A DNA stretch of 60,225 bases from a virus (IMGVR_UViG_3300043331_001563:1-60225); one strand, 5' to 3'. Positions 12,123 through 60,225 are shown, numbered from the stretch's first letter. Numbers and translations: made by a program. Notes: a model not told the origin generated them from the sequence alone.

Positions 12123-12201
12123 TCGCGTGGTACAGACCGTGCAATTGCACGTTAACTACGTGCAATTGCTGGACGACGCAAGGTCCGACAACGACGAGTA
12201 A
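12100..12201 (+). CDS. Possible 33-aa ORF bridging two methyltransferases
   Basis: ATG 12100 lies inside the previous gene in another frame and the stop is 5 nt before the next GTG. The translation has VQ-rich amphipathic character (VVQTVQLHVNYVQLL). The DNA holds three copies of the 8 bp palindrome GCAATTGC or close forms. Could be a coupling peptide or chance. Confidence 0.3.
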   Translation: MQLQSSDDRVVQTVQLHVNYVQLLDDARSDNDE

Positions 12202-12206
12202 TTACA

Positions 12207-12845
12207 GTGGGAATTCTTGCGGAGCCGTTACAGTTTATTCGAGACCTGAACCTTCCGCGCGGGTTCAGCGTGTGCGAACTGGGCGATCAGTGGATTACGT
12301 GCGAAGGCGGGCATCGCTTAGCGCGCGACTTCTACGTGAAGGATCTTGGCTGCAGCAAATACGTATCAATCGATGGCAACGGGCGAGGGACCGTTATCGC
12401 CGATCTGAATATTCCGCTCCCGAAACAGGGATTCGAGGACTGCGACTTCGACCTTGTTACTGATTTTGGAACGGGTGAACATGTGTTTAACCAGCAACAG
12501 GTCTGGCACACGTTGCATGACTTAACGAAGGTTGATGGTTACATTGTGTTTGACCGGCCTAGCGATGGCTACGAGGGGCATTGTTTTTTCTTGATGCAAT
12601 GGAATGTGGTCTCAGCGCTGGCTCACGCTAATTATTATGAAGTCGTGCGGCTCGAGGAGTGCGCAACGATTCGAGGCATTTTGCTGCGTGGGGTCCTACG
12701 TAAGCGGATTGCGCGCAAATTTATCGTGCCGCAGCAGGGGCGATATTACAAGGATTTGGTAATTGACAAGAAGTCACGACGGCGCGGGGCCGAATACAAA
12801 TCGCAGGAATTGCGAGCGGCGGGAGTAGTAGGAAAGCGAAAATGA
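12207..12845 (+). CDS. Methyltransferase-like protein (212 aa)
   Basis: FSVCELGDQWITCEGG resembles a SAM-binding motif I, and CDFDLVTDFGTGEHVFNQQQVW resembles the motif II/III region of small class I methyltransferases that act in sugar modification clusters. The C-terminus is highly basic. GTG start with only a weak purine stretch upstream; translation may depend on coupling. Overlaps the next start by 4 nt. Confidence 0.6.
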   Translation: MGILAEPLQFIRDLNLPRGFSVCELGDQWITCEGGHRLARDFYVKDLGCSKYVSIDGNGRGTVIADLNIPLPKQGFEDCDFDLVTDFGTGEHVFNQQQVWHTLHDLTKVDGYIVFDRPSDGYEGHCFFLMQWNVVSALAHANYYEVVRLEECATIRGILLRGVLRKRIARKFIVPQQGRYYKDLVIDKKSRRRGAEYKSQELRAAGVVGKRK

Positions 12846-13501
12846 CCCTAACTGTTGTTTGCGTCTTTGTTCAGGGCAACGTGCCGTACACAATGGAATA
12901 TGTTGAGCGGCTGTACTCGATGACGCGGCGGCACATTTCAAGGGCGCACAAGTTTGTGTGCCTGACTGACCAGCCCAGTAATGTGCCCAAGGGCGTATGG
13001 GGAATTGACGTCAAGACGCCTCCGGGTTGCTTTGGCTGGTGGGCCAAGGTCAGCATATTCGATCCGGAGCTGCCGTTTGAGGACCGGGTGCTGTACCTGG
13101 ATCTCGACACGCTGATCGTAAAGCCGCTCGACCCGATAATTGATTATGCAGCTTCGTTCGCCCTTATACCAACGGCGGGCACGTTTGAGGGACGGAATGG
13201 CCTCCACGTAGTTAAGCGCTATAATAGTAGCTGTATGGTATTCGACGCGCGCTCCTGGCAAGCTCGGAGGCTATGGGAGCACTGGTCGCCAAAAGTGGCC
13301 AAGCGACTGTGGGGCGACCAGGATTACATTGGGGAAGAGCTGCCGAACGAGTCCCGGATGCCGTTGTCCTGGTTTCCGCGGCTGTCGGAAATTTTTCGGT
13401 CGCGCAACTTCCCACACGATGCAAAGGTCGTGTTATGTAAGAAGCCGAAGAATCATATTGCAGCGGCTCAGTGGCCATGGTTCAAGGACCTGTGGCGATG
13501 A
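12842..13501 (+). CDS. Glycosyltransferase (GT8-like, GT-A fold)
   Basis: 219 residues beginning with a Rossmann-like strand (LTVVCVFVQGN). The D-x-D metal/nucleotide-sugar motif is in RVLYLDLDTLIVKPLD, followed by the acceptor-side NSSCMVFDARSW and WGDQDYIGEEL, typical of glycogenin-like/GT8 enzymes. It would transfer a sugar from a nucleotide donor. Acceptor unknown; a capsid or tail protein or host envelope are possibilities. Confidence 0.75.
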   Translation: MTLTVVCVFVQGNVPYTMEYVERLYSMTRRHISRAHKFVCLTDQPSNVPKGVWGIDVKTPPGCFGWWAKVSIFDPELPFEDRVLYLDLDTLIVKPLDPIIDYAASFALIPTAGTFEGRNGLHVVKRYNSSCMVFDARSWQARRLWEHWSPKVAKRLWGDQDYIGEELPNESRMPLSWFPRLSEIFRSRNFPHDAKVVLCKKPKNHIAAAQWPWFKDLWR

Positions 13502-13701
13502 CGGCATGGTCAATGCTCCACCGCGATAGTCAGTCTCGTAAGGATGAATGCCCGTCGCGCATTGGTTGCGTGCTACATGCAGCGGGCGACGGAAATTACG
13601 TATGCCGTACTTGCGCTACGGCGTGGTTCGTAACGGACAACGGGCATTGGTTCTCAGGCGACTGGCACGGCGACTTTCCGTGGCGAGAGAAGGAGGCATG
13701 A
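13498..13701 (+). CDS. Small cysteine/tryptophan-rich protein (67 aa)
   Basis: ATG 13498 overlaps the previous stop. Four Cys (CPSRIGC...CRTC) could hold a zinc ion; the C-terminus is Trp/Gly-rich (FVTDNGHWFSGDWHGDFPW). It ends exactly where the next gene starts. No family recognised. Confidence 0.5.
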   Translation: MTAWSMLHRDSQSRKDECPSRIGCVLHAAGDGNYVCRTCATAWFVTDNGHWFSGDWHGDFPWREKEA

Positions 13702-14535
13702 ATGGGTGCTCCAGGTTGTGACGACGCTCCGGTTGTCGAGATAGAATTGAGTGACTATCCGCGACCAGTGACGCTAATAAACCCGTACTACGATAACCCG
13801 CGCTGGTTTGCGCAGCAGCTTTTTCACTGGCGTGCTTTGCCGGATGACCTGAAAGCGCAGCTGTCGATCATCGTCGTGGACGACGGGTCGCCCGACTTTC
13901 CGGCTGAGGACGTGGTGCGCGAGCGCGGTGCGACACTCGGGGTCCGTAGCTTTCGGCTGTTTCGCATCGAGGTCGACGTTCGGTGGAACTGGCTCGCTGC
14001 GCGCAACATCGCGGCGCATCATGCAGATGACGGCTGGCTGGCGCTGACTGATATTGATCACGTGGTACCAGGAGAGACGCTGCGGACGCTGGTGTTTGGT
14101 CGGTTCAACCCGGATCGCATTTACCGGTTCTCCCGGCGCGAGCATACCGGGCAAGCGATTCACCCGCACCCGAATTCTTGGTTTATGACGCGCCAGATGT
14201 ATTGGATGATCGGCGGCTATGACGAGGCATGTTCCGGGTATTACGGCACGGACGGCGACTATCGGCGGCGTTGTGCTGCGGCGGCTGCCATTCGCATTAT
14301 GGCCGACCAGCTCGTTCGTTACGAATATGTTGACGATTCGTCGACGACGCGCTATAAACGTAAGCAGCCGGAAGACAGGCGTGGGCGCGAAATCATGCGG
14401 GCGCGGAAGCGCGGGTGGAAACCGAAAACCCTGAGTTTTCCTTACCATGAGATACAGAAAGAGACGCTATGGCCATCGCTCGCAAGCGCGGTCGCCCCAA
14501 GTCAAGACGGAGCGAGCGCACCAGCAAATGGATAG
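13702..14535 (+). CDS. Family 2-like glycosyltransferase
   Basis: 277 residues with GT-A features: LSIIVVDDGSPDFP (nucleotide-binding DDGS), WLALTDIDHVVP (the D-x-D equivalent), WFMTRQMYWMIGGYDEACSGYYGTDGDYRRR (acceptor loop and catalytic acid region typical of GT2). It lies between two other glycosyltransferases. The last ~65 nt overlap a small frame in another phase. Confidence 0.78.
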   Translation: MGAPGCDDAPVVEIELSDYPRPVTLINPYYDNPRWFAQQLFHWRALPDDLKAQLSIIVVDDGSPDFPAEDVVRERGATLGVRSFRLFRIEVDVRWNWLAARNIAAHHADDGWLALTDIDHVVPGETLRTLVFGRFNPDRIYRFSRREHTGQAIHPHPNSWFMTRQMYWMIGGYDEACSGYYGTDGDYRRRCAAAAAIRIMADQLVRYEYVDDSSTTRYKRKQPEDRRGREIMRARKRGWKPKTLSFPYHEIQKETLWPSLASAVAPSQDGASAPANG

Positions 14536-14648
14536 CCTCGATAGCAGCGCGGGTCTTGCGCGACCCGAAGTCGGCGACGGTCAACGAAATCAAACAACTG
14601 GTAGCGTCGTGTTTAACCCAAGTGATCGACAGAAAATTGTCACAATAG
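14469..14648 (+). CDS. Small AT-hook-like basic protein (59 aa), overlaps both neighbours
   Basis: ATG 14469. The N-terminus has KRGRPKSRRS, an AT-hook-type minor-groove binding motif, followed by SIAARVLRDPKSATVNEIKQLVASCLTQ, a pattern I recall in small phage/alphaproteobacterial DNA-binding proteins. The gene overlaps the end of the preceding glycosyltransferase by 67 nt and the start of the following one, in a different frame. Confidence 0.55.
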   Translation: MAIARKRGRPKSRRSERTSKWIASIAARVLRDPKSATVNEIKQLVASCLTQVIDRKLSQ

Positions 14649-15358
14649 TCTGCTGGAAATGGCACCACCCGACCTACCGTTCGAAATATACGGCAGAGCA
14701 CGTCAACGTTCTGAAGTCGATGTTGTCTCGTAATTGCTCGCGACCGTATCGCCTGATTTGTATTACGGACGACCCGAAAGGGGTTGAGACAGATACCTTC
14801 CCTTTGTGGGAAGATTATGCTAAAATGCAGAACCCTAACGGGTTCAATTTCCCTTGCTGTTACCGGAGATTGAAGCTTTTTTCGACTGAGACTACCCGTG
14901 CGTTGGAAGTACCGGACGGAGAGCGGGTTCTGTCGATTGATTTGGACGTGGTGATTACGGGTGATATCGGCAAGCTTTTTGATCGCGGCGAAGATTTTGT
15001 CGGCTGGAAGGGAATGGGCTCATTCAATCCGGTCGTCTATAACGGCTCGCTGTTCATGTTTCGAGCTGGCCGTCTTGACTGGCTGTGGGATGAATTTGAC
15101 CCCGATACTTCCCCGATTGCAACTCGCAAGGCGCGGTTTTTCGGCTCCGACCAGGGCTGGTTGTCTTATCGGTTGGCAAGGTCGAACCCGGACCCTCCCG
15201 GCTGGGACAAGATCGACGGTGTCTATTCCTACTCGAGGGACGGACACATGAGGAACCTTCCGACGATGGCGCGTGTGGTCTTCTTTAACGGTAAAATGAA
15301 GCCGTGGGATAAGGCTGTCATGCAGCAATCGCGCTGGATTCAGCGGTATTGGAGATAA
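14609..15358 (+). CDS. Glycosyltransferase, GT-A fold (third in cassette)
   Basis: About 249 residues from GTG 14609; ATG 14528 would add 27 residues that have low-complexity character. IVTIVCWKW opens the fold, RVLSIDLDVVITGDIGKLF carries the D-x-D motif, and VYNGSLFMFRAG plus FFGSDQGWLSYRL match the acceptor and C-terminal regions of GT8-like enzymes. It resembles the protein at 12842 in layout, suggesting an old duplication. It ends 4 nt before the prohead protease start. Confidence 0.72.
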   Translation: MFNPSDRQKIVTIVCWKWHHPTYRSKYTAEHVNVLKSMLSRNCSRPYRLICITDDPKGVETDTFPLWEDYAKMQNPNGFNFPCCYRRLKLFSTETTRALEVPDGERVLSIDLDVVITGDIGKLFDRGEDFVGWKGMGSFNPVVYNGSLFMFRAGRLDWLWDEFDPDTSPIATRKARFFGSDQGWLSYRLARSNPDPPGWDKIDGVYSYSRDGHMRNLPTMARVVFFNGKMKPWDKAVMQQSRWIQRYWR

Positions 15359-18808: not shown

Positions 18809-19194
18809 TGTCGTACACGCTGCCGACCGCAAACAGTATTCAGGCGCGCTATACGGTCACGGCGGACCTGGACGACTCGTTGATTGAATCCGTAATTACG
18901 GAAGCAGCGCGCTACGTCGATACGACGTGGCTTGAGGGCGATTACGACATTGCAATTTCGTTGCTTACGATGCACATTTTGACGCGCGAGGGTCACATTT
19001 CGTCGACACCTTCGGGCGGCGTGGCGGCAGGGCCGATCGTGTCGGAAAGTCTTGGTGATGCATCGGTGACTTATGCTGATTCGTCCATTTCAGGTTCCTG
19101 GTCGATGACCGTTGCCGATTTGGCAACTACGCCGTACGGGCGCCGGTTCATGGCACTGCGCGCGGCCAATAATCCTGCGGTGGTGGTCGTATGA
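18808..19194 (+). CDS. Head-tail connector protein (DUF4054-like)
   Basis: 128 residues. An N-terminal helical part (IQARYTVTADLDDSLIESVITEAARYVDTTW, DIAISLLTMHILTREGH) and C-terminal MTVADLATTPYGRRFMALR match head-completion adaptors of the DUF4054/gp6-like class, which dock under the portal. Start overlaps the preceding stop by 1 nt and its end overlaps the next gene. Confidence 0.72.
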   Translation: MSYTLPTANSIQARYTVTADLDDSLIESVITEAARYVDTTWLEGDYDIAISLLTMHILTREGHISSTPSGGVAAGPIVSESLGDASVTYADSSISGSWSMTVADLATTPYGRRFMALRAANNPAVVVV

Positions 19195-19814
19195 TCCGCG
19201 TCACGGACGTTGCCAAGCAAGAACGCGACAAGTACGCGGAAATCTGGAGTACCATTCCGGAATACGGAGCGCGTGAAGCGTCGCCGGGCCTGCTCAACGT
19301 CAACCGGTTCATGTCGGTCATGCAGCCGCCGCGCGACGGCACGTACACGCTGCTCGACATTGGTTGTGGAACCGGCCTAGCCGGGCTCGAGCTGCAGCGG
19401 CGCGGCCTGAACGTCGGTTACCTGGATATTACGGAAGCCGGGCTCGACCCGCAAGTGGACCGGGCGTGGTTCATTGAAGCGCCGTTGTGGGGCGACTGGC
19501 CGTTGCGCAACCGGCATGGTTGGGATTACGGGTTCTGTTGCGACGTAATGGAGCACATCCCGACGGAATTCACCATGCTGTGCATCGAGCGCATGATTGC
19601 GGGTTGTCGGCAGGTGTGGGTGCAACTTTCCAACCGGCCCGATAATTTCGGCCGCTTGATTGGCGAACCGCTGCACTTGACGGTGCGCCCGTTTCAATGG
19701 TGGCTAGTGCGGTTGAACATATTAGCCGCGGTGGAAGAGGCACGCGACCTGTGCGGGGAGAGTTTGTTTGTCATCTCTCGGAGGAAGACCAATGGCAAAA
19801 GCAGGCTTTCGTAG
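19191..19814 (+). CDS. SAM-dependent methyltransferase (class I)
   Basis: 207 residues with YTLLDIGCGTGLAGLELQRRG (motif I), NVGYLDITEAGLD (motif II) and YGFCCDVMEHIPTEF (motif IV/D-V-x-E-H). This is the Methyltransf_11/23 class, usually acting on small molecules or sugars. It interrupts the connector gene block, paired with the DUF115 protein at 20049, so it was probably acquired as cargo. Confidence 0.8.
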   Translation: MIRVTDVAKQERDKYAEIWSTIPEYGAREASPGLLNVNRFMSVMQPPRDGTYTLLDIGCGTGLAGLELQRRGLNVGYLDITEAGLDPQVDRAWFIEAPLWGDWPLRNRHGWDYGFCCDVMEHIPTEFTMLCIERMIAGCRQVWVQLSNRPDNFGRLIGEPLHLTVRPFQWWLVRLNILAAVEEARDLCGESLFVISRRKTNGKSRLS

Positions 19815-20052
19815 TACTCCGCCGCGTGTCAACGTCGCTCCGGAGCAAACGTCGCCGACACCCGTTCCCAGCAAGGAAGTGGACGAGCTGCGCAGGAAAC
19901 GGCAAGGGCTGAATGAGGAGATGGACAAGCTGCGCAAGCAGCAGCGCGAAGCGCCTCCAAACCAGCGGCAAAAGCTGCAGGAGGAGATTGCCAAGCGACG
20001 GACGATGGTTCGTAGTCTGTCGCTCCAGATATCGAACGCAGAGGCGGTATGA
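19792..20052 (+). CDS. Coiled-coil protein (86 aa)
   Basis: ATG 19792 behind GGAGGAAG. A proline-rich N-terminus is followed by a continuous heptad-rich helix (about 32-80, EVDELRRKRQGLNEEMDKLR). No cysteines. It sits between the methyltransferase and DUF115 genes with 23 and 4 nt overlaps. Function unknown. Confidence 0.6.
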   Translation: MAKAGFRSTPPRVNVAPEQTSPTPVPSKEVDELRRKRQGLNEEMDKLRKQQREAPPNQRQKLQEEIAKRRTMVRSLSLQISNAEAV

Positions 20053-20921
20053 ACGTAAGCGCCACATTCGAAATCGAGAAGACGACCCGGATCGAGTTCG
20101 ATTCCGAGAAGTGCGGGTGCAACGTACCCGACAACATCTATCTCGAGCAGGTCAACTCGAGCATTCGGCGCGGGCTGCCGCAGGCATACCCGCATGACCC
20201 AAGCGCAACGCTGGTCGCGCTGGTGTGCGGTGGGCCGTCGCTCGAGGAAACGTTACCGGAGCTGGTGCGACTGTATTGGAACGGAGCAAAGGTCGTCGCG
20301 GTCAACGGGGCATACCAGTGGTGCATTGACCACAACATTAAGCCATCAGCGATGATCATGTTGGACGGACGCGAGTTCAATTCGCGTTTCATTGAGACGC
20401 CGGTTGACGGGTGCACCTACATGTTAGCGTCGCAATGCCATCCGCGGACGTTTGACATCTGTGCGGACCGCGACGTGCTGTTGTGGCACGCGTGCTCGGG
20501 CGGCGACCCGGAGCTGGAGGTCCTGAAGGCGTTCTATTTTGACCGCACTTATCCGATAACTATCGGCACGACGGTCAGCGTGCGCGGCATCTCGTTGTTA
20601 CGAATGCTCGGCATGTGCAGCTTTGAGGTCTTCGGCCTGGATTCGTGCTGGCTTGATGGAAAGCACCACAGCTACGCGCAGCCGGAGAACGACAAGGACC
20701 TGCGCATTCCGGTATGGTTGACGCCCGGTCGCAAGGGAGAGCACCGTACTGATAAGGCGGTCCGTTTTATCTGCGCGCCGTGGCACATGAAGCAACTGGA
20801 GGACGTGCAGGAGCTTATCAGAGATCGCGGTGATATGTTTCGTCTCAACTTCCATGGCCCCGGTTTGATTGCGACGATGATTCGTACCGGGTTCGAATTG
20901 CAAACAGAGGAGAAAGGGTGA
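20049..20921 (+). CDS. DUF115/MptE-like protein
   Basis: 290 residues. LVALVCGGPSLEETLPEL (dinucleotide-type glycine motif), AKVVAVNGAYQWCIDHNIKPSAMIMLD and LASQCHP match the DUF115 (6-hydroxymethylpterin pyrophosphokinase MptE-like) family, also seen in motility accessory/glycosylation factors. In phages such genes accompany glyco-modification cassettes. The product would act with the neighbouring methyltransferase; substrate unknown. Confidence 0.72.
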   Translation: MNVSATFEIEKTTRIEFDSEKCGCNVPDNIYLEQVNSSIRRGLPQAYPHDPSATLVALVCGGPSLEETLPELVRLYWNGAKVVAVNGAYQWCIDHNIKPSAMIMLDGREFNSRFIETPVDGCTYMLASQCHPRTFDICADRDVLLWHACSGGDPELEVLKAFYFDRTYPITIGTTVSVRGISLLRMLGMCSFEVFGLDSCWLDGKHHSYAQPENDKDLRIPVWLTPGRKGEHRTDKAVRFICAPWHMKQLEDVQELIRDRGDMFRLNFHGPGLIATMIRTGFELQTEEKG

Positions 20922-46255: not shown

Positions 46256-46373
46256 CGCTGCCTTCCTCCGGGTTACTTATGGTCAACGGCTCGCTACGAG
46301 ACACTGGATTTCTGCTTGAATTCGGCTCGCTCAAGTTCAACGGGGTGTTTGCATCTCTCAGGCTATATCCCAT
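46236..46373 (-). CDS. Possible small ORF downstream of datZ (45 aa)
   Basis: ATG 46373 overlaps the datZ end by 11 nt, with AGGAGG only 2 nt before the start. Composition is polar and Ser/Pro/Asn-rich without hydrophobic core, so it could be spurious. Confidence 0.3.
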   Translation of the reverse strand: MGYSLRDANTPLNLSEPNSSRNPVSRSEPLTISNPEEGSDDRLPA

Positions 46374-46959
46374 ATCCTCCTGTCGTTGCGTGGTCGTTGA
46401 CGGCGGGCACCACGACTGTGTTCCAGGTACGGTCAAGCGTGTCCTGGTCCGCGGGCAGCTTGCGCCACGACGCCTCCAGCTGCGACCATGCCGGTGAGAT
46501 CCGCGGCGCGATGACGCTGTTGCCCATGCGCTGCTCGATAATAAGAAACAGCAGCGCGTCGAGCCGGTCCGCAGCCTTGATGATGTCCCACGACTGCGCC
46601 TCTTCCTCTTCAAACCGCGCCTCGTCCGCCAACTCGTCCAAGTCGCGCATGACGACCGCGAACCGCTCCGACATCTTTGCGTCGATAAACTCCGCTGCGC
46701 GCCGGTCGTCAATGATCTCGCGCTTCACCGGGCTGACGATGTCGCCGGTTATTAATTCGTCCAGGTCATGGGTCATTGCCCGGTACATCAAGTTACCGTG
46801 ATCGCCCGGCCACTTGATGAGCCGCGCAATCTCGCGCGCGTAGAACGTGACGTAGAACGAATGGTTGGACACCGTGTCGCGCGTCAACGTCCACACGATG
46901 GACCAGCGCGGCACGACGCTAGCGGTGCGTAGCTCGGGCGGAAACGCGCGCTTGGTCAC
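46363..46959 (-). CDS. datZ: DatZ-like HD-domain dATP triphosphohydrolase
   Basis: 198 residues, GTG start overlapping the MazG-like stop. The N-terminal R18-W19 pair, H33 (NHSFYV), H64-D65 (THDLDE) and D131 (AADRLDAL) reproduce the YfbR/DatZ HD active site. In known Z phages DatZ strips triphosphate from dATP, so adenine cannot enter the genome. Located directly after purZ and a MazG-like gene. A generic 5'-nucleotidase is the alternative, but the context favours DatZ. Confidence 0.85.
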   Translation of the reverse strand: MTKRAFPPELRTASVVPRWSIVWTLTRDTVSNHSFYVTFYAREIARLIKWPGDHGNLMYRAMTHDLDELITGDIVSPVKREIIDDRRAAEFIDAKMSERFAVVMRDLDELADEARFEEEEAQSWDIIKAADRLDALLFLIIEQRMGNSVIAPRISPAWSQLEASWRKLPADQDTLDRTWNTVVVPAVNDHATTGGYGI

Positions 46960-47375
46960 TCTGCCGCCTCCGTCGTCCGCAGGTCGAGCGCCTGCTCATC
47001 TGCGTTGCGCTCCTGGTCGAGCGCCGATAGCCGGTCATACACCATCATCGCGAAGTTGGCGATATCGACCAGCTCGCTTTTCGATTCACCGACCGTGAAG
47101 AATTCGTGCGCGACCTTGAATTCCTCGACCTCAAGCAGCAACAGCTTAAACAGCGCCTCAACCGGCTTCTCGCGCCAGTTCTTCTTGTGTTCGTTCTTAC
47201 GGAGCTTCAGCTCCATCTGGTCAACGAATGCCTGCAGCGCTTGCCGCCGCTGCACTTGGTCGTCAGCGCGATAACCGATGATGGCGCTGTCGTCCTTGTC
47301 AGTGACGGCCTGTAGCCACGTCTGAAACTTGGCTGCGTCGTACACTGTGAATTCGACGCTAACTTTCTCGCTCAT
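46956..47375 (-). CDS. mazZ: MazG-like pyrophosphohydrolase, MazZ candidate
   Basis: 139 residues, ATG 47375 behind GGGGAG. LLLEVEEFKVAHEFF and SELVDIANFAMMVYDRL give the E-E-x-x-E...E-x-x-D-type metal site of MazG-fold enzymes. The order purZ-this-datZ copies the S-2L type Z cluster, where MazZ turns dGTP (and GTP) into the dGMP that PurZ uses. The N-terminal 70 residues are longer than minimal MazG proteins. Confidence 0.72.
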   Translation of the reverse strand: MSEKVSVEFTVYDAAKFQTWLQAVTDKDDSAIIGYRADDQVQRRQALQAFVDQMELKLRKNEHKKNWREKPVEALFKLLLLEVEEFKVAHEFFTVGESKSELVDIANFAMMVYDRLSALDQERNADEQALDLRTTEAAE

Positions 47376-47378
47376 GCC

Positions 47379-48422
47379 TCATCTCCCCATTTTCACGTCA
47401 TCTGTTGACGGTCCGTACGCCCGGATTACTTGCGGGTGCGGCATTCGCAGCGCACTCGCAGCGCGGCGAATGTTTGCTTCAAAAAATGCGTTTATATCGT
47501 ATTTCGATTTCTCTGCATAGTCGCAGAACGACAGGAACACAATGTCTGGCCACGTCATCGACATCGCCTCGAGTACCTGTGCTTGTGACCAGGAAAACAC
47601 GCGCCGCACTCGCTTAGTGACGGTCGTTATTTCAGGCTCGACGCCGATCGCCTCCCACGTCAATTCTTGCTGGTCATGATAGCAACCACCGCTCGAATTG
47701 TCGCCAATGTTGCCGACGCGGATCGGAAACGTGCGCAGCACCAGCATGATTGGTCCAACGAAGCGCGGCGGTATGCCAGCGTCGGACGCGGCTTGCATTA
47801 CGGTACAATCACGTGACGTGCAATGTGGATAGAACTTACCGTTTAGGCTCAGCCCGATGCCCTGCGGCACTTCGACCAGGACTGCGAGGCCAGCTGCCAG
47901 CCGGTCGCCAAGATCCAAGCGACGAATAAATTTTCGCAATTCCGGTACCTGCTTTGCTACCAGACCGGATCGCAGCGCTTTCCGCGCGACGGCTTGCCCA
48001 ACGCCCTTTCTGGTTGAGGCGATCTGCGTCTGTTGGCTGTTCGGGTCTTGTTCAGCAACCTTGCATTCCTCAGTAATGATGGCTGCATTCGGGTGAATGA
48101 ACACGTCGTGCAGCATGTCGCTATGCTCGCTCATTTCATGCAACAGCACGTCCACGTCAATCACCGATCCGGCGTTGAGGTATACGACCGGCGACCTGCT
48201 GATCAATGCCGCAGTTGGCAAGTGATACACGACCCGCTTTCGTCCATTGTGCACCGACGTGTGCCCAGCCTGCGCTCCTGCATTGGTCGTTACAATGTCG
48301 AAGCGACGACCGATGGTCTGCAGGAAATAAGCAGTCCAAGCAGCTGCGGCGCCCTTGCCTTCGCTGCCCCACTGCCCGCCGACGATGAAGCTAGCTTTGC
48401 TTGGCTGATGGAACGTGTACAT
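47379..48422 (-). CDS. purZ: PurZ: dGMP-dependent adenylosuccinate synthetase homologue (2-aminoadenine synthesis)
   Basis: 347 residues from ATG 48422 (GGAG 9 nt upstream). FIVGGQWGSEGKGAAAAW (12-29) matches the PurA P-loop, but Ser20 replaces the catalytic Asp (GDEGKG in PurA), the hallmark of PurZ. N47...H54-T55 (NAGAQAGHT) is the second active-site loop; STRKGVGQAVARKAL and EITTVTKRVRRVFSW correspond to later PurA motifs. PurZ joins dGMP and aspartate using ATP or dATP; host PurB then releases 2-aminoadenine deoxynucleotide. The length is shorter than bacterial PurA (~430), as expected for phage PurZ. Confidence 0.93.
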   Translation of the reverse strand: MYTFHQPSKASFIVGGQWGSEGKGAAAAWTAYFLQTIGRRFDIVTTNAGAQAGHTSVHNGRKRVVYHLPTAALISRSPVVYLNAGSVIDVDVLLHEMSEHSDMLHDVFIHPNAAIITEECKVAEQDPNSQQTQIASTRKGVGQAVARKALRSGLVAKQVPELRKFIRRLDLGDRLAAGLAVLVEVPQGIGLSLNGKFYPHCTSRDCTVMQAASDAGIPPRFVGPIMLVLRTFPIRVGNIGDNSSGGCYHDQQELTWEAIGVEPEITTVTKRVRRVFSWSQAQVLEAMSMTWPDIVFLSFCDYAEKSKYDINAFFEANIRRAASALRMPHPQVIRAYGPSTDDVKMGR

Positions 48423-48718
48423 TAATATTTCTCCACATCTACGTAGTGGTTTGCTCCCAGCGTTGCGTATCCCGCAATGTCGAGCCATGGCTCCTGGTTG
48501 CTCGGCTCAGCGCCGACTGAACAAATGCGAGCTTGCTTCAGCGCGATTTCCTCGAGCGACAGCCGTTGCGCCGTCGACAGTAATTGCCAGTTGCCGCCCT
48601 TACGCATCGCTTCGCGTATCACCATGGCGATCCGTGCGTTTTCCTCGTACGCACCGTGCGTCTTAGCGCGGTCAGCCAACGTCACATCAATCAGGTTGGA
48701 AGTCAGCTTCTCAGCCAC
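48422..48718 (-). CDS. DUF6378-like phage protein (98 aa)
   Basis: TLADRAKTHGAYEENARIAMVIREAMRK and QRLSLEEIALKQARICSVGAEPSNQEPWLDIAGYATLG match a small phage family of all-helical proteins (DUF6378) often next to nucleotide-metabolism genes. Function not established. Its stop overlaps the purZ start (TAATG), so it is the upstream partner in the Z operon. Confidence 0.7.
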   Translation of the reverse strand: MAEKLTSNLIDVTLADRAKTHGAYEENARIAMVIREAMRKGGNWQLLSTAQRLSLEEIALKQARICSVGAEPSNQEPWLDIAGYATLGANHYVDVEKY

Positions 48719-49145
48719 AGCAAAAGTTCTCCAGCACGAATCTCAGCTCGTTGCCCTGCTCGTTGTACATGTCGAAGTGATCTTTAGCAACGACACGATA
48801 GCGCGACTGCTCAAGGCTGTCAAGGTCGAACGCCGCCGACTTCAACCCTTGCCGCCCGCGGCCTTCGAACTCGATGAACGACAGCACGCCGCAACGCATT
48901 CCAGCTCGCGAATACCCGCGCAGGAATTGTTTCTGTAACATGGTCAGCGGCAGTTCGAATTCCCGGTCGTACTCGATTCGCGCGTACCGCGTCAATTTCA
49001 CTTCGAGCAGCGCTGCGGGCGCCGATGGAAACTTTACCAGCAGATCACAGACACCAACCAAGAACCGATGCGACAATTTGTGCGCCGCTCCGCCGCTGGC
49101 GCGCACGACGTCGACCGTCAGCTTCTGGCAGTCAACCTCCCTCAC
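48711..49145 (-). CDS. PD-(D/E)XK nuclease-like protein
   Basis: 144 residues. D34 (GVCDLLVKF) and E48-V-K50 (LLEVK) form the PD-(D/E)XK metal site, followed by LPLTMLQKQFLRGYSRAGMRCGVL, the Q-containing helix of VRR-NUC/Holliday resolvase-like enzymes. Probably resolves or trims replication and recombination intermediates. Overlaps thyX's stop. Confidence 0.72.
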   Translation of the reverse strand: MREVDCQKLTVDVVRASGGAAHKLSHRFLVGVCDLLVKFPSAPAALLEVKLTRYARIEYDREFELPLTMLQKQFLRGYSRAGMRCGVLSFIEFEGRGRQGLKSAAFDLDSLEQSRYRVVAKDHFDMYNEQGNELRFVLENFCCG

Positions 49146-50044
49146 TGGTTCTCCCCCGCTAATGTCTTGCGATATTGAACCCAGCCGCGAAAGTTACCGT
49201 GCAGCTCTTCACGCTCCCACTTGCGATGCGAGCCTTGCGCCTCATAGCCGATCACTCGCGTATCCGGCGTCGCTTGATGCTCGGCAGGCGACGCGTGCAA
49301 CGGCACGGCCGACACCAGCCGATCGTACAGCCGCAAGTCCTCCTCCACTGTAGGCGTCTTTCCTTCTTGTGTCAGGTACGACACGCGAGCGCAGCGCGCA
49401 ACTGACAGCTTGACCATCGCAAGGTGCTGGTCGGGCGTCACGACGCCGCCCGCGTTAACCTTGATCCAATCATCCTCGTTGACGTACGGCAGGTGCCAGT
49501 CGCGGGGCTTGACTTGCTTCGGCTCGCTAGCGTCGCGCGCGTCGCGTATGGCCTTGGCCAGCATCTGCATTTCCGGCTGAGCGTCGGGATGACAGCGCAG
49601 TGCAAAGAAATTGGACCATTCCGTCGAGGTCACAACTACGTTGATGTGAGCAAACGGTTCGAGCAGCCGGTTAACGATCTGCTTGTGATACCCGGCCTCG
49701 GCAAACGCTCGCGCCCATTCAACCGCCTCGGTTCTAGCCTTTATCCAGGCGACGTTTCGCTTATCCCCACCATGCGCCGGGTGAGCAACGATTCCGTTGT
49801 GCTCTTCTTTCGCCTGCATGCCGGGCTGATTCTTGCCCCAAAACGACGGGTACACCGGGTCCTGCTCTACGTCGGCAATCAGACGCTCGACCGGAATGGC
49901 GCGGCTCGAGGACGCGTTACGACTGAATACCCGGTGCGTCATGAACTCGCCGTGGATGAATTTTGGGTAGCGCAGCTGCAGCGTCGTCAGCCGAATTCCA
50001 GCAGGAGACATGCTGTCCGCAATAACCTTCGCCGTTATCGTCAC
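49142..50044 (-). CDS. thyX: FAD-dependent thymidylate synthase
   Basis: 300 residues from GTG 50044, overlapping the DUF3310 stop. FMTHRVFSRNASSSRAIPVERL is the ThyX signature (THR...S-x-N-x-x-S-S-R), with HAGHT-like FAD contacts replaced by EPFAHINVVVTSTEWSNFFALRCHP, the conserved substrate region. It makes dTMP from dUMP with methylene-tetrahydrofolate and FAD, supplying T as Z's pairing partner. Confidence 0.9.
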   Translation of the reverse strand: MTITAKVIADSMSPAGIRLTTLQLRYPKFIHGEFMTHRVFSRNASSSRAIPVERLIADVEQDPVYPSFWGKNQPGMQAKEEHNGIVAHPAHGGDKRNVAWIKARTEAVEWARAFAEAGYHKQIVNRLLEPFAHINVVVTSTEWSNFFALRCHPDAQPEMQMLAKAIRDARDASEPKQVKPRDWHLPYVNEDDWIKVNAGGVVTPDQHLAMVKLSVARCARVSYLTQEGKTPTVEEDLRLYDRLVSAVPLHASPAEHQATPDTRVIGYEAQGSHRKWEREELHGNFRGWVQYRKTLAGENQ

Positions 50045-50268
50045 TTGCTTTTTCCCTTGCTCCACGACACCAGATAGTCCTGGTACCATTGTGCCTTGCG
50101 CAGGTCTTCTAGTCCGTTTTTCTTGTTGGCCCGCGCGTTGTACTTGATGATGTTACCCTTCAGGAACCCGGCGAACTCCTCTACCGTCAGCCACGCTTCG
50201 AGCACCTTGATGACCTCGTACGTATTGTCGGCTCCGCCGTAGTGTTCCGGGTGGTCAACTTCACTCAT
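50041..50268 (-). CDS. DUF3310 protein
   Basis: 75 residues. DHPEHYGGADNTYEVIKVLEAWLTVEEFAGFLKGNIIKYNARANKKNGLEDLRKAQWYQ is a full DUF3310 domain, widespread in phages next to thymidylate and nucleotide genes. Biochemical role is unknown. Coupled to thyX. Confidence 0.85.
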   Translation of the reverse strand: MSEVDHPEHYGGADNTYEVIKVLEAWLTVEEFAGFLKGNIIKYNARANKKNGLEDLRKAQWYQDYLVSWSKGKSK

Positions 50269-50791
50269 CCGCGTCGCCTCCGCCGCTCATCGTGATCGGA
50301 ATTGCGCCGCGGCCTTCCAGCTCTTCCGACGCGGCGACTAACAGGCGCTCCAGGTCGCGCATGTCATCGGGTAGATAGTCACACCATTCGCGCAGCATGC
50401 GCGGTATCGCTTCCTTATCTATCTCGTCTCCGCGCCAGCCGCGCTGTCTTATTGCGCGGTCCATGCGCTGCTTTTCGACCCACACCGTCTCGACGTGGAA
50501 CGGGGGTACGTGCATCGACAGCGAAATGTTATAGCCGCCGTCACCGCGGGCAGAGACGCCGGGCTCGCCGGGGAGAAGAAACATGGTCAGCGTCACGATT
50601 GCATCGGTCATACCGTTGCATTCGCGAAATTGCCAGTACATGTGGTTCGGTGCCGTCATTGTAAAAAACAAGCCTCCTATGGCCAAGAGCATGAATGCCA
50701 GCCGCGGGGCGAACACGCCCAGCATGCCAGCAATGACGAGCAAAAACTGTAGGTCCGCCAGCACGGCCTGTGACGCAATCGGGTCGTTCAT
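50261..50791 (-). CDS. Two-helix membrane protein with soluble C-terminus (176 aa)
   Basis: Residues 12-50 hold two hydrophobic helices; the rest (60-176) is soluble with VPPFHVETVWVEKQRMDRAIRQRGW. An internal start at residue 61 would give a soluble protein, so two products are possible. ATG 50791 overlaps the polymerase stop. No family recognised. Confidence 0.5.
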   Translation of the reverse strand: MNDPIASQAVLADLQFLLVIAGMLGVFAPRLAFMLLAIGGLFFTMTAPNHMYWQFRECNGMTDAIVTLTMFLLPGEPGVSARGDGGYNISLSMHVPPFHVETVWVEKQRMDRAIRQRGWRGDEIDKEAIPRMLREWCDYLPDDMRDLERLLVAASEELEGRGAIPITMSGGGDADE

Positions 50792-52986
50792 TTTCGCCTC
50801 GTTGCCTTGATTGGTCCAGGCGGGCGCCGCTGCTGAGTATATTCGGGGTATAGGTTGCGCTCGCCTGGGCCTGGGTAGCGCTTCCCTGTTTCGGGTTGCT
50901 TGACTTCAACGGCTCGCTGTGGGATGTTGGGTTGCTCGGTCTTGTCGGTTCGCTTGACTGCCTCGGATTGCTGCCCTTGCACCGGCTTTTCCGGTCCGTA
51001 CGTGGCGATTGCCCAGTTCGAGCCTTCGCCCGCGTCCACCGTCATCGGGATGTCGAGCTTGATTACTGCGCTCTCGCTGGCAAAGTCCTGCATGATGCGC
51101 AGGCATTCCTGGTAGTGTCCACGCGCCTCCTCTGGAAACTGGAATTCCGTTGCGTCGTGGCAATTCAGCAACATGTCGAGTGGTCGGCCGACTGAGTCCA
51201 AGTATTCGTCGACTTCGACCATCTTCAGCTTCAGGATGTCGGCGTTGCCGCCTTGTAGCGCGCGGTTCAGGGCGACGTACGACTTGTCGCGATGCGCGAG
51301 GCGACAGCGGCGCCCAAGTAGCGTCAGCAGATAGCCGCGCTCCTCCATCCGTCTCGTCATCTTTTTCTGTATCGTGCGCACTTCCGGCATCGCGCGGAAA
51401 TAGTCGTTCCAAACCTGCTCGACTTCGTCGCGCGGCACCTTGTACTTCTCCACCAGGACGTTCTTACCGCCTCCGGTGATGATGGTCTGATTGATGCGCT
51501 TGGCGTATGCGTTGCGATAGTGCTTTTGCTCGCTGGGCGTCAGGTCATGCCAGCGCCGATTTGCCGCAATCGCAACTGCGGTGTGCGCGTCAACGGGCGG
51601 GTCGGCCATGTAGCCGTCGAATAGTACCCGACAGCGCGAGTAATAGGCAAGCAAGCGGGGCTCGCACTGGTTGTAATCGACGCTCGCCCATGTCATTCCA
51701 GGGTCCGGCACGAAGATTGACCGGTAGAGGCGCCCGGTCTCCTCGTCGTGCTTCGGCACGGCCTGCAGGTTTGGGCTGTCTGATGATAGGCGCCCGGTCA
51801 CCGTGCCATACTCGTCGCCGCGCAGCTGGTTAAAATTTGTGTGCACACGACCGTTCCACAGGTGCGTCACCTGGAGCGGCAGCGCAAAAGTGTCGCGCAG
51901 TACTGACAGCTTGCGGATCTTGATGACTTTCTTGCCAGCCTCGTAATTCTCCAGCCACGCCGCCACCATCGACGGCTTGCCATTATTAGTAACCGGCCAG
52001 TCAGTGTGTCCGTGCTGTTCCATCCAGTATCGCACGTCGAGCGGACTGCGCTCGTTGAAATCCTTAGGAAATTCCTCTTTCAATGCGTTGATGGACGACT
52101 TAATGTGGGTCTTCAACCACGTAAATCGTTCCTCGTCAATTCGAATACCCTTGACGCTCATGCGCACAAGGACTGGAATCAACCGTGATTCTACGTCCCA
52201 AACTCGCGTCAGTTCCTGTTTCTCGATCTCCCTCATTTGCCAATCGCGCAACTGCCACGTCGTCGTACCATCACCGGTCGCGTATTCTACTGCCATCGGG
52301 TCGTTGCCCGGTAGGCGCCAGAAATGGCCCATTGCTTCCTTCGCCTTGGCAGCCGGAATGTTGAATGTTTTGCACAGGTAGTCATACATCTGCGCCGACT
52401 TCTTTGCCTGCACTCCCGCGTCATTGGCACAAAACTCGAGCGAAAACTTGCCTTGCAGCTCGTCAATCAGCGGCGCGTTGATGATCGTATCCTCGATGCG
52501 CGGGCGAAATTTGAACCCGACCCGGTGAAGGAACTTCAGGTCGAACGACATGTTGTGACCGAACAGCGTCGTGCCCTGCTGGTCGAGCGACGCCACCAGA
52601 AATTCTTCACCCGGCGACAGCTTGCCGTCCCAACCTTCCGACGTCATCGGCCCGGAGTGACCGCCGACGTTTGCGTTGCCGAAATGACGGAACGGCACGT
52701 AATAACTGTTCTGCGGCGCCGGGCCGAATGTCAACACGTAACCGACGATGTGGTTCTTGCGCCAGTCGAGCCCGGAGGTTTCAACGTCAACGCATCTCAG
52801 CCTTTGCTGCCGCAAGCGATTCAGGACTTCCTGCAGTATTGTGCTTGCTGCGTCGCGCGTTGTAGACACGAACCGCTTCGCTGGGCGAATTGACGACGCG
52901 CCCGGCGACCCCATAGGTAATTCGAGTTGGCCCGCCGTCTCTGCGGCTGTGGACACTGATGATCTCCGGGTAGCTTTCACAGGCAT
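50788..52986 (-). CDS. dpoZ: Family A DNA polymerase with 3'-5' exonuclease (DpoZ candidate)
   Basis: 732 residues from ATG 52986 (AAGGTGG upstream). Exo motifs: D67-x-E69 (VDVETSGLDW), GHNMSFDLKFL, YATGD; no 5'-3' exonuclease. Polymerase motif A is SVDYNQCEPRLL (~437), motif B YAKRINQTIITGGGKN (~490-505), motif C CHDATEF (~608). The O-helix lacks the usual F and Y (KxxNFgxxYG is here KRINQTIITGG). Context next to thyX and purZ makes this the replicative DpoZ. The first ~66 codons overlap the 52787 gene. Confidence 0.9.
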   Translation of the reverse strand: MPVKATRRSSVSTAAETAGQLELPMGSPGASSIRPAKRFVSTTRDAASTILQEVLNRLRQQRLRCVDVETSGLDWRKNHIVGYVLTFGPAPQNSYYVPFRHFGNANVGGHSGPMTSEGWDGKLSPGEEFLVASLDQQGTTLFGHNMSFDLKFLHRVGFKFRPRIEDTIINAPLIDELQGKFSLEFCANDAGVQAKKSAQMYDYLCKTFNIPAAKAKEAMGHFWRLPGNDPMAVEYATGDGTTTWQLRDWQMREIEKQELTRVWDVESRLIPVLVRMSVKGIRIDEERFTWLKTHIKSSINALKEEFPKDFNERSPLDVRYWMEQHGHTDWPVTNNGKPSMVAAWLENYEAGKKVIKIRKLSVLRDTFALPLQVTHLWNGRVHTNFNQLRGDEYGTVTGRLSSDSPNLQAVPKHDEETGRLYRSIFVPDPGMTWASVDYNQCEPRLLAYYSRCRVLFDGYMADPPVDAHTAVAIAANRRWHDLTPSEQKHYRNAYAKRINQTIITGGGKNVLVEKYKVPRDEVEQVWNDYFRAMPEVRTIQKKMTRRMEERGYLLTLLGRRCRLAHRDKSYVALNRALQGGNADILKLKMVEVDEYLDSVGRPLDMLLNCHDATEFQFPEEARGHYQECLRIMQDFASESAVIKLDIPMTVDAGEGSNWAIATYGPEKPVQGQQSEAVKRTDKTEQPNIPQRAVEVKQPETGKRYPGPGERNLYPEYTQQRRPPGPIKATRRK

Positions 52987-53621: not shown

Positions 53622-54683
53622 CTAGAAACGCCGGTCGACCCCCTCTTCACCCTCTCCTGCGTCTGCGTCACCTTCCGGGTCCTCGTCCTGCAGACCCTCA
53701 ATGTCCTTGATCTGCAGCCCCTGATCCTTGAGCGACAGGTGCATGTTCTTATAGCTGTTGTACGCCGCCTCGTCCTCCACCAGCCCGGCACCGCGCATAC
53801 TGATGTTGTGGAACGACTGCCCGCGGCTGTTGCTGTCCTCGAACGAGGTCAGCTCAAACTGCAGACCAAACAGCGGAGTGCGGACGGTCTTCAGCTTGGT
53901 GTTGAAGCGACGCCCAACCTTGATGCTCGAGCGCTGAAACGTCAGCACGGCGGGCATCAGGTCCGGGTGCTCCGGGAACGCCAGCACGAAGCTATACATC
54001 AGCGTCGCAGCTGGAGGCGAATTCGGATCGCTGGGGTCCATCGTTCCCCAATTGGCAAGCCCCGATTGTTGCACTGTCTTTGCCAACGACCACGTGACGG
54101 TCTTGCCGCCCTGACTCTTGTCGAGCTGAACGGTGAAATCACCGGACGCGGGCGACCAGTGAATTCCGTCGTCAGCGCGGGCAAGAATTCCACCGCCGCT
54201 GTCGCGTGGCCGCCACAGGATGTAACGACGGTCCATGTAGACCGGGACCACCAGCACCGCGGAGTCGAAGATCATCTCGGCCGCGGTGTGAAAGAAGTGC
54301 CCCGGCCGCAGCTCGTTGAAATCGTTCAGCTCAGGCGACAGCCCTTGCATCAACTTCAATCGCGGAACTTCGATGTCCTCGCGGCCGATGTTCTCCTTAC
54401 CCATCCCGACATCTTCGCGCATGAATGCCGGAACGTTGGTCACGTTGCCGAAATCCTCGGTCTTGGCGACCTGCTGGCGGGCCTGTGCGGGCACCGGTCG
54501 ACGCTCGGTCGTCGCGGGAACGGCCCGTCCTGACGTGGGGCGGGCTTCCGGCTCGCGTCCCTGGTGCCGGGCGGCCTGCTGTGCCTTCGAGCCTCCCGAC
54601 TGCGCCGGTTGGGCTCTCTGCGGCTGTGCCGGTGCCGCACGTTGCGCGGGCCGTGCCGTTGCTTTCGTCGCTTGCTTTGCCAT
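53622..54683 (-). CDS. Phage replication-associated protein (353 aa), possible ssDNA-binding role
   Basis: An N-terminal 95 residues rich in Lys, Gln, Ala and Pro, then an ordered core (residues ~100-330) with REDIEVPRLKLMQGLSPELNDFNELRPGHFFHTA and YILWRPRD, and a C-terminus of acidic residues ending DRRF. Such architecture recalls phage proteins annotated as single-stranded DNA-binding or recombination factors. ATG 54683 behind AGGAG. No firm family assignment. Confidence 0.6.
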   Translation of the reverse strand: MAKQATKATARPAQRAAPAQPQRAQPAQSGGSKAQQAARHQGREPEARPTSGRAVPATTERRPVPAQARQQVAKTEDFGNVTNVPAFMREDVGMGKENIGREDIEVPRLKLMQGLSPELNDFNELRPGHFFHTAAEMIFDSAVLVVPVYMDRRYILWRPRDSGGGILARADDGIHWSPASGDFTVQLDKSQGGKTVTWSLAKTVQQSGLANWGTMDPSDPNSPPAATLMYSFVLAFPEHPDLMPAVLTFQRSSIKVGRRFNTKLKTVRTPLFGLQFELTSFEDSNSRGQSFHNISMRGAGLVEDEAAYNSYKNMHLSLKDQGLQIKDIEGLQDEDPEGDADAGEGEEGVDRRF

Positions 54684-54719: not shown

Positions 54720-55628
54720 CTATGTCAACTGGTCCATACTGATGTTAGGGCATTGCTCGATATGCCGCTTTGCCCGGCTCCAACTATAACCCCATCGTTC
54801 TACGAGTCGAATCACACGCGGGTCAACACCTTCAAGCTTCGCCTTATTGATCGCGTCTTGTCGCGCGTCCGACCGGCGCTTCTCTTCCTTTCTTAATTTT
54901 TCTAACCATTGTTGTTCGAATTCGGTTGCGGGCGGCTCCCGCCTATGCTTCAAGTCCTCCACATGCTCGCGAAATTCTGCAGCTGATTGGTCCCGGTGCT
55001 TTCGCATCGCAGCTTCAGCTGCCTCGTATCCAACAGCTTTCAGGCGGTTAGCTCGAGCTGGGTGCCGCAACTTACGTAATGCTCTGGCTTCTACCTGACG
55101 AATTCTTTCACGCGTAACCTTGAAATCGTCTGCTACTTGGTCCAGCGTCTTTGCTTCACCGTCAACGAACCCAAATCGCAGTCGCAGACACCGCTCTTCT
55201 CGAGCAGGTAGCGTATTCAACAATTGGTGCAGACAAGTGTTCAACTGATCCGTTATCATCAACTGCTCAGGGTCTTGCGGCGCGCCGTGCTCCCCAACCA
55301 ACATAAGCTGGACGTCTTCCTTAGAAACTTCTAACTCACCGCTGGACCTCGCCAAAGCTGTTTCTAGGTGCTGCTCCGGAAACAGACTGAACGGTGGTAG
55401 ACACAACGCTGTAGCAATTAATTTTACCGACGGCGCCCATTCGCCATTCTTCATGATTGGCGATCGCTCCAGCGCCAAGTATCTCAGCACGGATTTATAA
55501 GACGCTCCACTTTCTTTGGCAAGCCGTGTCGCGTTCATTCCACGGCCCCGCATTGCTCGCAGCATCGGACCATTTTTGACGCGAACTTGAAGTATATAGT
55601 CTTTACCAGTCGTCTTCGTCACTTGCAT
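54720..55628 (-). CDS. XRE-like HTH fused to sigma70 region 4-like domain
   Basis: 302 residues, ATG 55628 with ATAGGAG. An XRE-type HTH covers about residues 20-75 ([27 protein letters not shown]). Residues ~137-193 ([54 protein letters not shown]) are sigma70 region 4, the -35-binding helix-turn-helix. Regions 2 and 3 are missing. It may redirect host RNA polymerase or act as a transcription switch for late genes. C-terminal 100 residues are charged and helical. Confidence 0.8.
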
Positions 55629-55638
55629 TTTTCATCTC

Positions 55639-56223
55639 CTATGTCCTGGTTACACTCGTGTTCGGCATGTTGGCCACGGTAAACAGCTCGGACGGCAGCT
55701 CGATGTTCTGCTCCTCGAGCATCGTGCGTGCAGTTGCGGACAGCGTGCTGGCGTTCACCGTCGTGGTGATGATGTCGCCCAGCTTGTTGCCGCGCAGCCA
55801 CGCGTACGCCTTGTCCTTTTCCTGCGGCTTGATCGAGGCACGAATGGTATACGATACGCCGATGCGATAACCTTCTGCTAGCGGTACCGACGTGACGCCT
55901 TCCTGCTCGAAGATTGCGGGCAGTTGCTGCGTCTTGTACTCATCAAACATCGCGCGCAACGGCTTGAACCAGCTATCGGATTCGGAGCAGGTGATGCTGT
56001 GTAACCGGTGGAGGACCACGAAGGCTCGCGCCAGCGGTACTGACCCGGCTTCCTTCGCCTCTGCCATCTCCCGGCTCAGCTCGGGCAGCAGCTTGACGAT
56101 TTCCGACAGGTGCCTGACGATCTGCGCCGCAACCGGCAACGCCTTGACCAGCGACGCAGGCAGTGGGGCGGGCGGCTCTTTCTTGCCGTTTGCAGATGAA
56201 GCAGGCTTAGATTTCAAAGACAT
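55639..56223 (-). CDS. Conserved phage protein (194 aa)
   Basis: ATG 56223 with ATAGGAG; promoter upstream. Two halves: a helical part with leucines (LPVAAQIVRHLSEIVKLLPELSREM) and SWFKPLRAMFDEYKTQQLPAIFEQEGVTSVPLAEGYRIGVSYTIRASI, a pattern I associate with phage proteins in replication clusters. The sigma-like gene follows 10 nt later, so the two share a transcript. Function unknown. Confidence 0.6.
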   Translation of the reverse strand: MSLKSKPASSANGKKEPPAPLPASLVKALPVAAQIVRHLSEIVKLLPELSREMAEAKEAGSVPLARAFVVLHRLHSITCSESDSWFKPLRAMFDEYKTQQLPAIFEQEGVTSVPLAEGYRIGVSYTIRASIKPQEKDKAYAWLRGNKLGDIITTTVNASTLSATARTMLEEQNIELPSELFTVANMPNTSVTRT

Positions 56224-59536: not shown

Positions 59537-59750
59537 TGCCAGCCTCCCCTCTCCACTCATGTATTTCGAATATATGTTTGTCCGGAAGTTTTCCGTCAAA
59601 CTTGATTCGCCCAGCCAGCCGTGCGACGCATTGCGGACCAAACAGTAACATCTGACCATGCTTCAGTGGAATCATTCCCATGGCAGTAATCACCGCGATG
59701 TCTTCCCGCTCGCGCCGTATCTTATCGCGGTCTACACGCTGTCTTGTCAT
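59502..59750 (-). CDS. Hypothetical protein (82 aa)
   Basis: ATG 59750 overlaps the gcrA stop (ATGA). The basic N-terminus (TRQRVDRDKIRREREDIAVIT) precedes MIPLKHGQMLLFGPQCVARLAGRIKFDGKLPDKHIFEI. Coupled to the regulator upstream. Unrecognised. Confidence 0.55.
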   Translation of the reverse strand: MTRQRVDRDKIRREREDIAVITAMGMIPLKHGQMLLFGPQCVARLAGRIKFDGKLPDKHIFEIHEWRGEAGNDDGSGAVAPD

Positions 59751-60225
59751 CCCCATTTCTTAGGCCGTTCGTGCGATTTTGCGTGGTGATGGTCACAATA
59801 ACTCGACGTGTGTCGCTGCTTGCGGCGCCCACAAAAGAAGAACCCTGGTTGACCAGGAATTCCTACCGGCCAGTGACACACAGTATCGTTCAGCTCGAGC
59901 AACGTTCTGCGCTGCGCTTGCGGTATGTCCTGGTCATTCTCCGGCGCCGCAGGCAATGGCCGAGTCGCTGGCCTGCGTACCAGCCGCTGCACGATTGCGG
60001 CCTGAACCGCGCCATTAAGGTGCCGCGCGCGTTGCGGTCGCCGCTTCATTCGCTGAAAGATTAAGTTCCCGCGCCGGTTCTCCAGCCCTAATCTCGTCTT
60101 CTTACCAATGACGACGTTCCTGCTGCGGTCGAGTTCCCTTGCGATTTGACCTGACGTGTGGCCAGCAGCCCACATTTTACGTAAGATCTCTTCGCGTTCT
60201 GGAGTCCAAAAGTTACTGGCCGTCA
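59747..60225 (-). CDS. gcrA: GcrA-family cell-cycle regulator, N-terminus beyond right edge
   Basis: The open frame continues to the right edge without a start. FWTPEREEILRKMWAAGHTSGQIARELDRSRNVVIGKKTRLGL is the GcrA helix-turn-helix with the usual ID of basic residues, and the C-terminus VCHWPVGIPGQPGFFFCGRR...SYCDHHHAK holds the zinc-binding C/H set of the sigma70-binding domain. Alphaproteobacterial GcrA acts with RNA polymerase sigma70 at promoters carrying CcrM-methylated GANTC sites. A phage copy could retune host cell-cycle genes. Confidence 0.82.
   Translation of the reverse strand, partial: TASNFWTPEREEILRKMWAAGHTSGQIARELDRSRNVVIGKKTRLGLENRRGNLIFQRMKRRPQRARHLNGAVQAAIVQRLVRRPATRPLPAAPENDQDIPQAQRRTLLELNDTVCHWPVGIPGQPGFFFCGRRKQRHTSSYCDHHHAKSHERPKKWG

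Follow-up and report, generated by a model that had tools for sequence, protein, structure and literature searches.

A nine-gene locus on the minus strand of the virus record analysed here has at its core, with a probability of about 0.85, a Z-genome pathway, in which adenine (A) would be replaced by 2-aminoadenine (Z). The record, referred to below as the window, is an uncultivated virus sequence of 60,225 bases from IMG/VR, linear and without end repeats. In the proposed pathway, MazZ-2 would convert dGTP to dGMP, and PurZ would use dGMP, aspartate and a purine triphosphate to form the succino precursor of dZMP; dZTP would then be completed by PurB and nucleotide kinases of the host, DatZ would destroy dATP, and the linked family-A polymerase would copy the genome with dZTP. 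With dATP destroyed and dZTP copied in, A would thus be replaced by Z, and the phage DNA would be hidden from host enzymes that read A. This reading is built on observed gene identity, clade, active-site residues, gene order and recurrence, from which all of the enzyme activities and the base itself are predicted. The initial annotation had taken a PurZ-MazZ-DatZ module as the sign of a Z genome, a reading to which the tree, the active-site residues, the arrangement of the genes and the structural models lend good support; in phage S-2L the same three functions are enough for Z to appear in E. coli DNA (PMC8342488).

Organization of the locus

Structural genes are carried on the plus strand of the window and replication genes on the minus strand, where nine genes at 46,363-52,986 overlap or almost touch:

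50788-52986, minus strand: family-A DNA polymerase with 3'-5' exonuclease, 732 aa, of a PurZ-linked clade (PF00476 and PF01612)
50261-50791, minus strand: unknown protein, 176 aa, between the polymerase and DUF3310 genes (no match in Pfam, PHROG or NCBIfam)
50041-50268, minus strand: DUF3310 protein, 75 aa (PF11753, E=1.3e-19)
49142-50044, minus strand: ThyX, flavin-dependent thymidylate synthase, accessory (PF02511, 6.7e-11; PHROG 85, 5.7e-94)
48711-49145, minus strand: nuclease-like protein, 144 aa, recurrent in the module (weak match to PHROG 93 endonuclease; homologue at 15/43 loci)
48422-48718, minus strand: DUF6378-like protein, 98 aa (PF19905, 26.9 bits, slightly below cut-off; homologue at 8/43 loci)
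47379-48422, minus strand: PurZ, 2-amino-adenylosuccinate synthetase-like, 347 aa, Ser20 for Asp (profiles, tree, alignment, AlphaFold model)
46956-47375, minus strand: MazZ-2, all-alpha NTP pyrophosphohydrolase-like, 139 aa (similarity to p33 of Ochrobactrum phage vB_OspP_OH, hereafter OH; acidic residues; model)
46363-46959, minus strand: DatZ, HD-domain dATP triphosphohydrolase-like, 198 aa (PF12917, 1e-18; PHROG 7076 "dATP triphosphohydrolase", 1e-17)

The PurZ, MazZ, DatZ and ThyX genes named in the initial annotation were confirmed at the coordinates it gave, all on the minus strand, and so was their coupling: the PurZ start ATG overlaps the TAA of the upstream gene, the PurZ stop is separated by 3 nt from the start of the MazG-like gene, the DatZ start lies in a GTGA across the MazZ stop, and ThyX begins with the GTG of another GTGA across the DUF3310 stop, which accounts for the end coordinate 50044 assigned to the module earlier. 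An uncultivated linear record without end repeats is what a chimeric metagenome assembly, with a module from another phage, might look like, but the base composition is even and a sister record, L021 (67.6 kb), carries the module and GcrA and has a capsid protein 63% identical to that of the window, so that this explanation is largely refuted and extremely improbable.

PurZ identity and active site

The best profile matches of the window PurZ are NF038379 of NCBIfam (1.7e-65, 221 bits) and PHROG 1211 (4e-64), every PurA model scoring lower; with such values, and 1e-17 for DatZ, these are not chance matches. The 221 bits miss the NF038379 cut-off of 300, a point against the Z reading, although this is a naming threshold and not a biological trait; OH PurZ (241), an accepted relative, is also below it, and the other references score 350 (S-2L), 397 (phiVC8), 346 (PurZ0) and 127 (E. 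coli PurA). The initial annotation had described a PurA-like protein with Ser20 in place of the catalytic Asp, and the alignment bears this out: Ser20 lies in GGQWGSEGKG, with GTQWGDEGKG as the E. coli PurA counterpart, and aligns with S23 of S-2L PurZ and the catalytic Asp13 of PurA, a position at which all 105 aligned PurZ/PurZ0 sequences have Ser.

A single-sequence search of IMG/VR with PurZ gave no matches, and a profile of 10 sequences detected a relative encoded on 401 contigs. The best 80 of these were retained, and seven genome-contig loci were added. In a tree of 92 rows, the window protein falls within PurZ, apart from PurA and PurZ0 (support 100/99), with a further split at 97/91; this was the phylogenetic check proposed in the initial annotation. 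One PurZ branch (100/95) holds the tested enzymes of phiVC8, S-2L and SH-Ab with their kin. Its sister branch (100/99) comprises OH, the sole isolate there among the tree rows used, the window and most uncultivated sequences, and no tested enzyme from it was found in the literature consulted, a point against the Z reading. Within this branch, the window's subclade (L020-L025, L032, L047, L052, L064) has GGQxGS[E/C]xKG and AQAGHT, as opposed to GSTGKG and PNAGHT. The AlphaFold model of the protein (pLDDT 91.7) has phiVC8 PurZ (6fko) as its best PDB match, with a TM-score of 0.85, followed by S-2L PurZ, archaeal PurA and PurZ0.

Compared with S-2L PurZ, for which the roles of the dGMP-contact residues have been described (PMC8342488), the window protein keeps G22, S23, A50, T132, R146, Q190, T205, R240, V241, the T273-T276 loop and R280, and differs at N49 (Q), Y203 (H), N305 (S) and Q308 (D). 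The N49Q change lies in the base pocket and counts against the Z reading: Asn is found in 94/105 sequences and in E. coli PurA, and Gln in the other 11/105. Together with the altered neighboring stretch (AQAGHT for PNAGHT), it could mean that this subclade makes another modified purine nucleotide from another acceptor; we consider this very improbable, as the other dGMP contacts tested are for the most part conserved or carry minor changes, and MazZ-2 and DatZ are retained.

An ordinary, IMP-using adenylosuccinate synthetase, whose MazG and YfbR-like neighbors would serve nucleotide salvage in general, is very improbable. The P-loop, GSEGKG, is PurA-like apart from its Ser, a PurA-type Asp occupies the guanine-recognition position, and the OH homologues were annotated as general salvage genes (PMC7139368); against this stand the loss of the catalytic Asp, a tree position deep in PurZ, PurZ enzymes as the nearest solved structures, adenine-specific W20/I22 in DatZ, and recurrence of the module across loci. 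By clade and active-site residues, the assignment of the window protein to PurZ is well supported, and it is predicted to use dGMP and Asp.

The phosphate-donor motif of the window PurZ is SFCD, close to those of PurZ0 (SFAD, TMLD or TMAD) and E. coli PurA (TKLD), with the PurA/PurZ0-type Asp at the guanine-recognition position where ATP-using, tested PurZ enzymes have Asn or Gln (NFCN, NFAQ or NFAN). PurZ0 reportedly uses GTP, according to a 2023 report. A paper of 2026 words the donor preference of PurZ0 the opposite way (PMC12884076). Judging from this motif, GTP rather than ATP is the likely donor of the window PurZ. Asp at this position occurs in 35/105 sequences spread over several clades, so a switch between GTP and ATP would have arisen repeatedly.

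MazZ-2 and DatZ

The MazG-fold and HD-fold proteins had been credited with intact metal sites, and both assignments hold. In MazZ-2, E82, E85, E101, D104 and N107 are invariant among 37 sequences, the first four being the acidic metal residues of MazG. The protein shares 35% identity with OH p33 (E=8e-10), adjoins purZ and is similar to the MazZ-2 proteins of phiVC8 and OH, and it is predicted to hydrolyze dGTP to dGMP. Its model consists of four helices, and MazG-type structures are its best Foldseek matches, among them 2p06 and the MazG-related 2yxh (probabilities 1.00 and 0.94), with E values of 0.05-0.2 that are individually weak. In locus L079 (7989-9431, plus strand), PurZ and MazZ-2 are fused in one open frame, which is strong evidence that the two work together.

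DatZ, whose residue conservation was followed over 77 sequences, keeps R19, W20, I22, H34, H66, D67, E70, G74, D75, P79, K81, K116 and D119 of S-2L DatZ and differs from it at Q29 and A32. All metal, phosphate and adenine-specificity residues given for the S-2L enzyme (PMC8065100) are thus present, including the six metal ligands H34/H66/D67/E70/D75/D119 and W20/I22 for adenine specificity.

The linked polymerase

In the family-A polymerase, D26, E28 and D85 of the exonuclease (phiVC8 numbering) are intact, as is HD in motif C; motif B reads AKRINQTIITGGGK, with Thr at the helix-O Tyr position. It belongs to a clade of 47 PurZ-linked polymerases from uncultivated phages and OH (SH-aLRT 99), found only together with PurZ in the sample analysed and sister to DpoZ-2 (85). 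The window protein has T, Q and N in place of the DpoZ-2 signatures F459, L455 and G548 and also lacks insertion 3, so it is placed in a sister clade of DpoZ-2 and not in DpoZ-2 itself. It scores 304 bits with the DpoZ model, below the cut-off of 500, and this score was rejected as evidence because control phage polymerases not known to be PurZ-linked reach 326 and 266. The dedicated polymerase of the initial annotation is therefore plausible as such, but is not a DpoZ by published signatures.

Both known DpoZ groups have just one change in common, Phe in place of the helix-O Tyr (PMC8599892). The Tyr is nearly universal in family-A polymerases and was kept in 83/83 for which PurZ was not seen (77 uncultivated contigs and 6 references), PurZ absence being unproven for the many contigs that are short. 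Among 59 PurZ-linked polymerases it is lost in 53: Thr or Ser occurs in 41 (uncultivated phages, including the window, or OH), Asn in 1 and Phe in 11, all of DpoZ-1 or DpoZ-2 type. These data hold 2-3 phylogenetically independent contrasts, which is not significant, and Tyr loss is thus a pattern rather than a test result; a statistical claim was rejected. The window polymerase, with its Thr in helix O, is predicted to tolerate or prefer Z:T.

It is possible, if doubtful, that dZTP is made but the polymerase is not Z-selective, in which case replacement would hang on depletion of the dATP pool by DatZ and might be incomplete; this is a variant of the Z-pathway reading, with which its probability overlaps. 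The missing DpoZ-2 signatures agree with it, as do the ordinary Tyr kept in six PurZ-linked polymerases and the pairing of a non-selective PrimPol with DatZ in S-2L (PMC8065100), but DatZ is intact, and the window polymerase has lost the Tyr and lies in a clade seen only with PurZ.

Recurrence of the module

Recurrence was assessed at 43 uncultivated loci in which PurZ is flanked by at least 4.5 kb on its upstream side and at least 2.5 kb on its downstream side. PolA was found at 36/43, MazZ at 36/43 and DatZ at 35/43, with all three beside PurZ at 29/43, in the recurring order PolA-(nuc)-(DUF6378)-PurZ-MazZ-DatZ. ThyX, which the initial annotation had included in the operon, is a real gene, but its association with the module is not conserved: it adjoins the module, in the same place, only in the window and L052, and lies elsewhere in L064; L020-L022, which are close relatives, lack it in their records. 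It was accordingly rejected as a core component.

PurZ was also observed on contigs of up to 994 kb, some of them from bacterial MAGs (L100, L101, L058, L061, L083, L088), where neither DatZ nor MazZ was matched near PurZ; these may be either large phages or chromosomal PurZ-like genes. Bacillus phage vB_BpsS-140 (L018) encodes a deep-branching, Ser-type PurZ-like protein with GSEGKG, and no MazZ, DatZ or polymerase was matched within the 7 kb region examined.

Host and restriction sites

A GcrA homologue is encoded at 59,747-60,175 on the minus strand (PF07750, 88.7 bits), and GcrA is also present in the sister records L020 and L021. GANTC is depleted in the window (153 sites observed against 259 expected from shuffles) and is the most avoided of 16 gapped palindromes, at 0.75 of expectation. 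Together these features suggest an alphaproteobacterial host. The initial annotation had spoken of a GcrA/CcrM lineage; GcrA is present, but CcrM was rejected, as no CcrM-type or other N6/N4 methylase family was matched in the window and no N6/N4 methylase was found in the records of 14 relatives. Methylated adenine in GANTC is the usual signal for GcrA; since the phage is predicted to lack adenine, the target of its GcrA may be host rather than phage DNA. The GANTC depletion counts against a Z genome, in that DNA proof against A-reading enzymes would not obviously need such avoidance.

Restriction-site statistics were dropped as evidence because avoidance is not clearly weaker for palindromes containing A/T (0.87) than for GC-only palindromes (0.80). 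Across the window, CCCGGG (20 expected), GCCGGC (34) and GAGCTC (16) are absent, as if selection still acted against some restriction sites, most of them GC-only.

Other genes of the window

The portal protein (4232-6052, plus strand) has a C-terminal domain like the anti-CBASS phosphodiesterase Acb1 (PF23474, E=2e-35, residues 466-605); PHROG 146 (portal) spans the entire protein, which makes it probable that the fusion is widespread in this portal family. Amid the capsid genes (10744-15358 and 19191-20921, plus strand) are FkbM and other methyltransferase domains, glycosyltransferases of family 2 and, with a weak match, family 8, together with an MptE-like protein, perhaps for virion or surface glycan decoration. 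A 302-aa protein (54720-55628, minus strand) with a housekeeping-type sigma-70 region 4 (PF04545) and an N-terminal helix-turn-helix-like stretch is a possible phage sigma-like regulator. The proteins at 53622-54683 and 55639-56223 match the gp34 and gp33 families of Pseudanabaena phage Pam3 (L108), in which a related polymerase lies next to a modification-like cluster of another kind (annotated Nmad5, thymidylate synthase and 5'-deoxynucleotidase).

Comparison with known Z-genome systems

Among complete base replacements, Z-DNA is the best documented case in which a Watson-Crick pair gains a hydrogen bond, and one half of the PurZ tree accounts for all of the tested enzymes. Should the other half also make Z, the known group would be enlarged, with the 401 PurZ-encoding IMG/VR contigs as its measure. 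Should a polymerase with Thr/Ser at the helix-O Tyr select Z, it would be a second natural system for studying how family-A enzymes distinguish Z:T from A:T, a question that remained after the phiVC8 structure paper, and synthetic genetics would gain a candidate tool enzyme. We tentatively picture a second half of the Z phages, nearly all of it uncultivated, in which PurZ would have gone back to GTP and a third class of Z-selective family-A polymerase would carry Thr, Ser or Asn instead of Phe in helix O, although we regard this as doubtful.

OH was already listed among the Z-cluster phages in 2021 (PMC8342488), so the suggestion that the window extends the Z-genome repertoire to alphaproteobacterial phages does not stand. 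OH is the closest sequenced relative: it has the order PolA-x-nuclease-x-PurZ-MazZ-2-x-DatZ, is the best BLAST match for PurZ (39.5%), PolA and MazZ, shares the PurZ and PolA branches of the window, and has an alphaproteobacterial host, as inferred for the window. It differs in being a 41 kb podovirus with PrimPol (PMC7139368), in having no ThyX within the 17 kb region examined, in GSTGKG/PNSGHT and Asn at 308 of PurZ, and in Ser rather than Thr at the helix-O Tyr.

The Z-clusters of phiVC8, S-2L and SH-Ab 15497 share with the window a Ser-type PurZ, the same key DatZ residues (except L for I22 and V for P79 in phiVC8) and MazZ between PurZ and DatZ, of the MazZ-2 type in phiVC8; phiVC8 and SH-Ab also have a family-A polymerase (PMC8342488, PMC8065100, PMC8599892). 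Their PurZ proteins form the sister branch (100/95 against 100/99) with the ATP-type NFCN motif, and the polymerases of tested Z-clusters have Phe459 and insertions. PurZ0 of Gordonia and Arthrobacter phages (PMC12884076; 7vf6) resembles the window PurZ in its GSE[A/G]KG P-loop and [S/T]xxD donor motif, but forms a separate clade with DutZ, DmtZ and DUF5664 as partners instead of DatZ and MazZ-2. The type of Z-genome system and an alphaproteobacterial example are thus already known. New are a PurZ branch that is large in uncultivated data and without tested enzymes in the literature consulted, and, in the window, two deviations at predicted catalytic sites: the donor Asp of PurZ and the helix-O Thr of the polymerase.
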